Assembly: GCA_016212295.1 (NCBI GenBank)
Contig: JACRGO010000149.1
Span: 1-51,069, forward strand
Origin: Nitrospinota bacterium
GTDB taxonomy: Bacteria; Nitrospinota; Nitrospinia; JACRGO01
Length of the DNA: 51,069 bases
Direction: 5' to 3'
Part shown: piece by piece, positions 6,640 to 9,593 of the stretch
Numbering within the stretch: position 1 is the first letter of the stretch
How the letters are laid out: every line of letters begins with the position of its first letter
Made by a program: the position numbers and the translations under genes
Notes under the pieces: model-generated
The model's input: the letters and a program-made list of their open reading frames with translations, nothing else
Database searches by the model: none
Told to the model about the DNA's origin: nothing

Positions 6640-6870
6640 ACTACAAATCCATAAAACTTTGCTAAAAAAACAAAGTTTTATGAAACTCCAAATCTCAATT
6701 GTCAAATAACAAATAAATCCCGATAACCAAAATTACAAATAACAAACAAGGAAAAGGCAATGGAATTGCTTTGGACATTCAGTAATTGTAATTTGTAATT
6801 TATTTGGGATTTGTTATTTGTCATTTGGAATTTTGTTTCCCCTTTGGCTGCGGCCAAAGGCCGCGCCATG
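6640..6870. repeat. Dispersed AT-rich palindromic repeat (family B), copy 1
   Basis: The core runs from about 6690 to 6840 with opposed arms: CAATTGTCAAATAACAAATAA on the left and AATTTATTTGGGATTTGTTA on the right, around a conserved GGACATTCAGTAATTG centre. Copies occur at about 11403-11565 in opposite orientation and at 27228-27365, and a fragment at about 44171. It is preceded by a hairpin at 6648-6680 (ATAAAACTTTG/CAAAGTTTTAT) and followed by the GC-rich tag GGCCGCGCCATGAA. Confidence 0.75.
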
Positions 6871-7312: not shown

Positions 7313-7366
7313 GATATTTTCCTATATTTGATATAGCATTGTCGGCATATAAGAAAGATAATTCAC

Positions 7367-7492
7367 TTTTTTTCTACTTTAAAGGAGGGAAGATTATGAA
7401 TTGTAAAGACGCCGGAAATTTTTTTGGTCCCAGCAGACAACTCCATTTGATCCTTTGCGCGGTTTTTTTCATTTGCTTCATTGCGGTCCCTG
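7367..7492 (+). repeat. Ribosome-binding-site plus signal-peptide segment, copy 1
   Basis: This 126-base segment contains a T-rich leader, AAAGGAGGG, the start codon and about 32 codons of an export signal. It recurs at 8259-8385 with about six differences, upstream of an unrelated mature protein. Confidence 0.9.
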
Positions 7493-8127
7493 TCCTTGCC
7501 GCCGGTAACGGTACTCTTCTGGTGATCTTGCAGGACACCTCGAAAAAACAAATCAACGCCCCGATATATGTGGATAACGAGTTGAAGGGAACCGGAAAGG
7601 TGACTCTGGCGCTTCCAGCAGGGAGGCATGAGTTAAGACTCGGGGTTTTGGCGGGATATACCATCGTGTCTCCCAAGAGCGGAAAGAAAAATGTTCAGGT
7701 AAAGGCCGGGAAAAAAATGACGTTGACAGGGATTTACAAAAGATACTCTTTAACAACGGCCTTCACCGATAATGGGAACGGGACGGTCACAGCCAATACT
7801 GGTCTGATGTGGCAGCAGGAGGATGACAATACGAAAAGGACCTGGGATGCGGCGGTGGCTTATTGCGGTGCCTTGTCCCTGGCTGGATATTCCGACTGGA
7901 GGCTTCCATATTTGGATGAACTTAACTCCATCGTGGATACAAGATATACTCCCGCTATTGATGGCGTTTATTTTCCAAACACAGATTCATCCTACTATTG
8001 GTCGTCTGCGACACACATGGGCAACACGTCCAACGCGTGGTACGTGGACTTCAAGAATGGCTTAGTCGTCAACAACATCAATAAGTCCTACAGCCTCTAT
8101 GCCCGGTGCGTTCGCGATGGACAGTGA
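7396..8127 (+). CDS. Secreted PEGA-like/DUF1566 protein
   Basis: The start is the ATG at 7396 with a strong AAAGGAGGG site; an upstream in-frame ATG at 7339 precedes that site and is discarded. Residues 1-36 form a signal peptide with a hydrophobic core LILCAVFFICFIAVPVLAA. Residues about 37-115 look like a PEGA-type surface domain (INAPIYVDNELKGTGKVTL, AGRHELRL). Residues about 118-243 are a DUF1566 domain, seen in DNGNGTVTANTGLMWQQ, YSDWRLPYLDELNSIVD, YYWSSATHMGN and the terminal YARCVRDGQ. DUF1566 proteins have a C-type-lectin-like fold and are usually exported; ligand and role are unknown. The signal region is shared with the next gene. Confidence 0.82.
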   Translation: MNCKDAGNFFGPSRQLHLILCAVFFICFIAVPVLAAGNGTLLVILQDTSKKQINAPIYVDNELKGTGKVTLALPAGRHELRLGVLAGYTIVSPKSGKKNVQVKAGKKMTLTGIYKRYSLTTAFTDNGNGTVTANTGLMWQQEDDNTKRTWDAAVAYCGALSLAGYSDWRLPYLDELNSIVDTRYTPAIDGVYFPNTDSSYYWSSATHMGNTSNAWYVDFKNGLVVNNINKSYSLYARCVRDGQ

Positions 8128-8130
8128 GTT

Positions 8131-8231
8131 GTTGGCCGTTTGATTATTTGAATATTTGTGTATTTATGGGGTGCAAGGGCGCAGCCACGGGGAGCTACAA
8201 GTCGGGCTGAGGGAACCCTGTGAACGGCCAC
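8131..8231. other. Possible structured intergenic element
   Basis: GGCCGTT near 8133 pairs with AACGGCC near 8224, closing a stretch of about 100 bases. Within it are complementary blocks such as GAGGGAACCCT and a GC-rich segment unlike the AT-rich DNA around it. It lies immediately upstream of the second signal-peptide segment. It could be a 5' leader structure or a repeat; it matches no riboswitch class I can confirm. Confidence 0.3.
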
Positions 8232-8258
8232 ATTGCGATCGACATTTAAGCAAAATAA

Positions 8259-8385
8259 TTTTTTTTCTACTTTAAAGGAGGGAAAGTTATGAATTGCAAA
8301 GACGCCGGAAATTTTTTTGGTTCCAGCAGACAACTCCATTTGATCATTTGCGCGGTTTTTTTTATTTGCTTCATTGCGGTCCCTG
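8259..8385 (+). repeat. Ribosome-binding-site plus signal-peptide segment, copy 2
   Basis: This is the second copy of the segment at 7367-7492. Similarity starts in the T-run before CTACTTTAAAGGAGGG and ends at GCGGTCCCTG. After that point the two genes share nothing obvious. Confidence 0.9.
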
Positions 8386-9593
8386 AAGATATTGCACTGG
8401 CGGCCGCCAAGTCCGCAGGCATTGCCTTTCCTGCCGACGGCGTCCTGGCTTCCACGTCGGAGGCCAAGAAAAAGACCGATAAAATTCTGGCCATTGAAAG
8501 CGTCACTCCTGACTACGGGAAAATCGGGGCCAGGGTCATCATAAAAGGCCAGAACTTCTCCAGTAATAGGGAAAGGAACATAGTTGAATTCAACGGCGTT
8601 AAGGCCACGGTAATCAGTGCAAAAAACAATAAGGCGCTGATAGTAAAAGTGCCGCCAGGGGCCTATTCCGGTTATATTACGGTAACGGTGAAAGATCAGA
8701 CCGCGACAAGCAATGTAAAATTCACGGTCCTCGGCAGCACGGGAAGCGAAATTCCTGAAGGCATGGTGGAGGTGCCGGGAGGATGTTTTACCATGGGGGA
8801 TGATAATGGGGACTGGGATGAAAAACCGGCGCACAACCACTGCGTAAGCACCTTCTACATTGATAAATATGAGACGACCAACGCACAGTATAAAAAAGAA
8901 TGTGAAGAAAACGGTCGTGAGATATGTAATTATCTGCCGCCCGCTTCTTGGCTTGCCTACTATAAAATTCATGATAGGTATAACGACCCAAATTATTCCA
9001 ATCACCCCGTGACTAATATGGCTTCACTCCATGCTGAACAGTACTGCAAGTATCGGGGGAAAAGGCTGCCCACTGAGGCGGAGTGGGAGTACGCGGCCAG
9101 GGGGCCAAACAGCTACAAATACCCTTGGGGGAATGAGGAGCCTGACAGCACGTTTGCCAATTTCTGTTCCACTTGCGTTGTGGTAGGAAAAACGGCGGAA
9201 GAGTGTTCCCAAAGTAACGCACCCGGCGGTTGCGTCATTATCACCGATGATCCCGCCAGTAATCCAAATGATTATACAGGCTTGACTATAAAACCAGGTA
9301 GCCACGAAAAAGATAAATCCTGGGCCGGAGTATATGACATGGGCGGAAACGTTAGTGAGATCACGAGCGATTGGTTGAAAAAAGAAGACTTGGATGCAAA
9401 AAAGAACAGCGCTTATATGAATGCCGGGCATGAAGGACATACCAATTATACCGAGCCTGATTTAAAAGTTGACCAGGTAATTTTAAAAGGTGGAAATTCT
9501 TGGGCGCCAACTTATTATATCAGGCCAGCTATCCACAGTTTGCTTCCTGACGGTTCGTCCAGGGCAGCAACCGGCTTTCGCTGTGCCTATTAA
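8289..9593 (+). CDS. Secreted TIG/IPT plus FGE-sulfatase (SUMF1-like) protein
   Basis: Residues 1-40 form a signal peptide almost identical to that of the preceding gene. Residues about 68-148 form an IPT/TIG immunoglobulin-like domain (IESVTPDYGKIGARVIIKGQ, ending VTVKDQTATSNVKFTVLG). Residues about 155-434 form an FGE-sulfatase domain: MVEVPGGCFTMGDDNGDWDE, IDKYETTNAQY, GKRLPTEAEWEYAARGPNS, YPWGNEEP, DMGGNVSEITSDW and the terminal ATGFRCAY. Family members either convert sulfatase cysteine to formylglycine or, more often in exported bacterial proteins, serve as C-type-lectin-like modules. No sulfatase is nearby, so a binding or structural role seems likelier. The ATG at 8289 follows AAAGGAGGG. 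Confidence 0.88.
   Translation: MNCKDAGNFFGSSRQLHLIICAVFFICFIAVPEDIALAAAKSAGIAFPADGVLASTSEAKKKTDKILAIESVTPDYGKIGARVIIKGQNFSSNRERNIVEFNGVKATVISAKNNKALIVKVPPGAYSGYITVTVKDQTATSNVKFTVLGSTGSEIPEGMVEVPGGCFTMGDDNGDWDEKPAHNHCVSTFYIDKYETTNAQYKKECEENGREICNYLPPASWLAYYKIHDRYNDPNYSNHPVTNMASLHAEQYCKYRGKRLPTEAEWEYAARGPNSYKYPWGNEEPDSTFANFCSTCVVVGKTAEECSQSNAPGGCVIITDDPASNPNDYTGLTIKPGSHEKDKSWAGVYDMGGNVSEITSDWLKKEDLDAKKNSAYMNAGHEGHTNYTEPDLKVDQVILKGGNSWAPTYYIRPAIHSLLPDGSSRAATGFRCAY

Follow-up and report, generated by a model that had tools for sequence, protein, structure and literature searches.

The window, the whole stretch of 51,069 nucleotides that we analysed, contains two neighbouring genes, P1 and P2, whose beginnings are nearly the same and whose remainders are unrelated (Table 1). 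Aligned without gaps, the strict parts of the two shared segments agree at 120 of 126 bases (95.2%, 6 mismatches), and a whole-genome search with the segment returned the match between the copies at E 1.5e-52. An ungapped repeat finder gave the segment a length of 138 nt at 92%, and upstream of the strict part a weaker match (17/21, followed by a 4-base gap) reaches about -54/-50. The 126 bases hold a ribosome-binding site, the ATG and the first 32 codons. Two of the mismatches are in the spacer that separates Shine-Dalgarno and ATG, and the four in the codons comprise 2 synonymous and 2 non-synonymous differences (Ks 0.11, Ka 0.03), which shows recent copying and goes beyond what mere selection on the peptide would preserve. 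Right after +96 the identity between P1 and P2 drops from 85-95% to 15-35%. The copies are direct repeats, 893 bp apart. A sequence-only reading of this DNA had described near-identical segments with leader, Shine-Dalgarno, start codon and export signal; our results agree with it and move the beginning of the second copy from 8259 to 8260. A scan for promoters and terminators gave nothing in excess of shuffles.

Table 1. Features at the P1/P2 locus, in positions of the window.
Feature	Position	Strand	Basis or remark
XRE/Cro-type helix-turn-helix regulator, divergent from P1	6906..7265	-	Pfam HTH_3, 59 bits
Shared 5' segment, copy 1	7342..7492	+	matches strictly at 7367-7492 (95.2%), more weakly upstream at 7342-7366
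P1 Shine-Dalgarno (AAAGGAGGG), within copy 1	7381..7389	+	sequence
P1, 243 aa: putative signal peptide, then CnaB/PEGA-like stalk and Lcl_C head	7396..8127	+	
Putative P1 signal peptide, cleavage proposed after VLA35	7396..7500	+	by eye; predicted helix 13-28
CnaB/PEGA-like stalk module of P1, family at 23 loci of the genome	7501..7743	+	
Lcl_C (DUF1566) domain of P1	7792..8115	+	
Shared 5' segment, copy 2	8239..8385	+	strict part 8260-8385
P2 Shine-Dalgarno (AAAGGAGGG), within copy 2	8274..8282	+	sequence
P2, 434 aa: putative signal peptide, TIG, FGE-like head	8289..9593	+	
Unshared end of P2 signal peptide (EDIALA), possibly remnant of a former signal	8386..8402	+	inferred from junction 8385/8386
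TIG/IPT (immunoglobulin-like) domain of P2	8493..8729	+	Pfam
FGE-sulfatase-family domain of P2, without the catalytic cysteine pair	8757..9587	+	

P1 matches Lcl_C/DUF1566 (PF07603) at 107.3 bits against a Pfam gathering cut-off of 34.9. We modelled its structure with paralogues of the same genome. Residues 38-116 form a confident predicted beta-sandwich (pLDDT about 97), and this stalk model matches several CnaB-type/transthyretin-like domains as a whole-domain fold, with Z 9-10.6 over about 80 residues. According to the models, the stalk and the CnaB-type domains appear to have a fold in common, which does not imply a common function. PEGA (PF08308) is the nearest Pfam family, but at 17.2 bits the stalk stays below its cut-off of 20.8, and the PEGA model gave any match (E up to 10) in 4 of 12 members of the stalk family. 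The C-terminus of P1, modelled less confidently, matches the C-terminal domain of Legionella Lcl (8q4e, Z 8.8, 112 residues).

P2 matches FGE-sulfatase (PF03781) at 149.2 bits, where the Pfam gathering cut-off is 23.3. Active formylglycine-generating enzymes (FGEs) have a catalytic cysteine pair close to the C-terminus, in 6s07 within GGSFLCHESYC. This stretch aligns, in a weak part of the alignment, with KGGNSWAPTYYIRPA of P2, which lacks the cysteines. Without a visible pair of this kind, the FGE-like domain of P2 is probably a binding domain, as judged from its residues. The mature parts had been called unrelated by sequence, and so they are: Lcl_C/DUF1566 in P1, TIG plus FGE-sulfatase in P2. 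That both proteins end in C-type-lectin-like folds is reasonable for P1, given its structural match to the Legionella domain; for P2 it goes back to the known fold of the FGE family. P1 and P2 thus represent one plan made from unrelated parts: an export signal, a beta-sandwich stalk and a C-type-lectin-like head. Both proteins are probably exported and displayed on the surface, where their heads would bind ligands.

Comparison of the DNA of 5' regions demonstrates that P1 is a mosaic. It is P2-like from -54 to +96 and stalk-family-like from about +98 to +354, where it agrees with the stalk module of C119 at 77.6%, with that of C60 at 76.4% and with others at 71-75%. P1 changes from P2 to the stalk family as its match at the signal-peptide cleavage region.

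We searched for the 126-bp segment elsewhere. The whole-genome search found no third copy, every other match being 14-26 bases long. No credible match outside its own genome was found among the 77 genomes of the class (its own is one of the 77), and a degenerate peptide pattern of the segment had no match in the species collection, where its own genome may be absent. With no further copy in the genome or in the 76 others of the class, the element represents a local two-copy event and no dispersed cassette, and the idea of a cassette spread through the genome has to be given up. The sequence-only reading had named two findings that together would speak against it, absence of other copies and descent of the two genes from one full-length duplication. 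The former is what we found, whereas the genes did not descend in the latter way. Nor was anything found that links the nearby XRE gene, to which attention had been drawn, with the segment. The homologue in the one congener of a gene flanking the locus is only 34% identical, so that no useful comparison of the locus was to be had.

The stalk is found at many places in the genome. A stalk profile gave 27 matches at 23 loci of its own genome and none in 79 other genomes searched; a second stalk profile had no match in the phylum's 76 other genomes. Peptide patterns of the stalk had no match in the species or viral collections, in scans that detect close relatives only. The partners of the stalk are of about ten types: Lcl_C, FISUMP, CHB_HEX_C, RCC1, Kelch, PQQ, CAP, FGE, subtilase and two parts that match no Pfam family. 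Four of the stalk loci are broken or truncated, with frameshifts in C168, C98 and the second C119 gene, and with C110c cut short. A tree of the stalk modules labelled by partner shows 14 changes for 14 labels; it is poorly resolved, and we do not rely on it because it includes two frameshifted members that had to be pieced together manually. The genome as a whole has 17 Lcl_C and 19 FGE matches, and many such genes lie outside the window. On C147 a TIG-FGE gene is followed by an Lcl_C gene, that is, the head types of P1 and P2 in opposite order.

Two closely similar stalk/Lcl_C genes have poly-G tracts upstream, G9 at C119:4434-4461 (- strand, locus L159) and G14 at C98:12075-12107 (+ strand, locus L158). 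In both, the tract lies between a -35-like and a -10-like hexamer, with spacers of 14 and 19 nt, respectively, and both genes have a common frameshift at the same place of the stalk module. A poly-G tract between promoter hexamers is the usual sign of phase variation. From their letters, these two promoters look phase-variable.

Other pairs of genes, with different signal peptides, likewise share a beginning and then part. C163a and C163b, 35 bp apart, are 86% identical from -26 to +342 and unrelated thereafter, with RCC1 in one and a part without assignment in the other. C219 and C156, on separate contigs, are 73% identical from -46 to +340 and continue as Kelch and FISUMP. C110c and C197a are 87% identical from -14 to +216 and then unrelated; C110c stops there with a stop codon, and is a truncated 5' copy. 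C110a and C110b share 91% identity between -15 and +140, after which their DNA is unalignable up to +369 and resumes in Lcl_C at lower identity. The common unit varies by case, being the signal peptide only, the signal with the stalk, or the mature domain only.

A comparison of substitution rates between the segment and the mature regions had been proposed. For P1 and P2 it cannot be made, their mature parts being unalignable, and it can be made in C110a/b, where codons 1-46 have a Ks of 0.08, the middle is saturated and Lcl_C has a Ks of 0.78. The Lcl_C pair C34b/C147b displays the reversed contrast, with Ks 1.2 in the signal peptide against 0.07-0.24 in the mature part (0.07-0.12 in codons 21-95). 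The pairs for these contrasts were picked after inspection, and hence the p values, about 5e-5 for the synonymous end-to-end contrast of C110a/b and 0.0017 for signal versus whole mature part of C34b/C147b, are descriptive. Together the two opposite contrasts indicate that 5' ends and mature domains moved independently. The earlier proposal of an exported-protein family diversified by 5' exchange is thus supported at the level of modules, by virtue of the 23 stalk loci, the pairs with shared starts and the C110 rate contrast, and is not supported for the 126-bp segment as a genome-wide unit. In the mature part of an Lcl_C pair (C147:22134-22466 and C34:10213-10545, loci L114 and L115), Ka is about equal to or above Ks; over the last 49 codons Ka is 0.33 and Ks 0.24, a difference without significance against neutrality. 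Such values suggest relaxed or diversifying selection on this head.

Our preferred reading, to which we assign a probability of roughly three in four, is that P1 and P2 are of different descent, that a recent partial duplication or gene conversion copied the 5' end from one to the other, and that this is one case of a genome-wide recombination of front ends and back ends. At the locus, partial duplication or gene conversion between the neighbours would have furnished the other gene with a leader, a ribosome-binding site and 32 codons. The copying junction would fall inside the signal peptide, thus supplying an unrelated mature protein with ready-made signals for translation and export. P1 is the likelier donor and P2 the likelier recipient, since P1 begins to match its family at the end of the shared part, and P2 still has what appears to be its own cleavage region (EDIALA|A). 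This direction is uncertain; the 5' end of P1 bears only a marginal resemblance to the 5' ends of its stalk relatives C119, C197b and C81. The step from P1 to P2 rests on one pair, as the segment is found nowhere else. In the wider process, exported proteins would exchange back-end domains and front-end modules, the latter being a signal alone or a signal plus the CnaB/PEGA-like stalk. An existing front end would be joined to another mature domain by recombination or partial tandem duplication, both among neighbours and among paralogues. We infer recombination as the mechanism.

Could both genes instead stem from a full-length tandem duplication, after which the mature parts diverged past recognition while the 5' end stayed? 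The two are adjacent and in the same orientation, and the heads of both fall within the wider C-type-lectin-like fold. However, a Ks of 0.11 in the shared part stands against mature parts of different Pfam families with different stalk domains, and the P1 stalk matches 22 other loci, so we consider such an origin hardly credible. Alternatively, the segment may be a regulatory RNA or a special signal for translation or export, and selection may keep the DNA alike in two old genes. That it starts near the ribosome-binding site and spans the export signal is in line with this, but the leader has no Rfam match, a third copy is missing from the genome, and the two copies hardly differ at synonymous sites or in the spacer, as would fit recent copying. 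We consider a selected signal very unlikely. Equally improbable is a misjoining of two genes through a repeat in the draft assembly. The genome is a draft of 237 contigs, 90.5% complete, and repeats of such length can mislead short-read assembly; yet 6 positions and the flanks distinguish the two copies, the site lies in the interior of a 51-kb contig, and the pattern recurs on other contigs. Furthermore, the segment would be common to two genes even if their adjacency were wrong.

A programmed switch would have the 126-bp direct repeats recombine, deleting or swapping the body of P1 and leading to alternative expression in the style of mycoplasma surface antigens. A deletion between the repeats would leave P2 intact behind the upstream region of P1, and two relatives elsewhere carry the poly-G tracts between promoter-like hexamers described above. 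Against it, the copies are already 5% diverged, no inverted repeat joins the starts of P1 and P2, and the window holds no silent heads (no other Lcl_C or FGE part). With direct repeats only at the starts and no alternative Lcl_C or FGE parts in the window, the locus does not resemble an invertible locus of the Mycoplasma/Ureaplasma type, and we judge a switch improbable. Copying of a 5' end between P1 and P2 accords with 95.2% identity, Ks 0.11 and the abrupt loss of similarity, and in this respect the view that an expression-and-export segment had been put on unrelated mature proteins is borne out.

Other elements lie at and beyond the locus as well. Between the glycosyltransferase and XRE genes, at 6683-6833 of the window, are A-T-rich imperfect inverted repeats with arms of 36 nt that are 78% complementary, perhaps a decayed repeat element. 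At C142:10274-12148 (loci L018 and L053), a reverse transcriptase that looks group II intron-like adjoins a gene with a partial FGE domain. We also considered a diversity-generating retroelement that varies the C-type-lectin-like heads. The C142 enzyme is the single reverse transcriptase match in the genome and is group II intron-like by our reading, and a diversity-generating retroelement is unlikely; one may have been missed, given the 90.5% completeness.

The locus illustrates, with sharp breakpoints and synonymous-site evidence, how a working ribosome-binding site and an export signal can be gained in one step by exported proteins of a little-known bacterium. The expansion of the stalk to 23 loci with about ten kinds of partner, and its absence from 76 other genomes of the phylum, provide a natural set for studying the origin of new surface proteins beyond well-studied pathogens. 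It is conceivable, though we hold it to be rather doubtful, that the genome has a private and still active export toolkit, in which one stalk family has exchangeable signals and heads that move independently, partly under poly-G phase-variable promoters, with fast turnover of the surface.

Several known systems resemble this one. CnaB/transthyretin-like domains form stalks of pilins and adhesins, and the P1 stalk is like them in structure (best Z 10.6) at a sequence identity of 15-25%; unlike them, it is the N-terminal front end of exported proteins in one genome. Legionella Lcl (PMC11162425), like P1, has an Lcl_C/DUF1566 head on an N-terminal stalk, but P1 has one CnaB/PEGA-like domain and is devoid of collagen-like repeats. 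In Ureaplasma, several MBA paralogues of one genome have in common a 5' region that encodes the signal peptide and membrane anchor, and they differ thereafter; chimeric genes arise by recombination, and switching by inversion at inverted repeats has been demonstrated (PMC3047005). In contrast, the repeats at P1 and P2 are direct, and no inverted repeat joins the starts. Similar in principle are type III effectors, chimeric forms of which with common 5' secretion ends are described in PMC6460904, citing Stavrinides et al. 2006. Terminal reassortment places a 5' end with a secretion signal on genes with unrelated remainders and yields chimeric families. The same 5' secretion end with unrelated mature parts is what P1/P2 and the other pairs exhibit. 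Here, unlike in the effectors, a putative cleavable Sec-type signal, alone or together with a stalk, forms the front end, and the products probably belong to the cell surface instead of being injected. The principle of terminal reassortment is thus already known; what is new is an exported stalk-and-head family of such make-up, found in one genome only.
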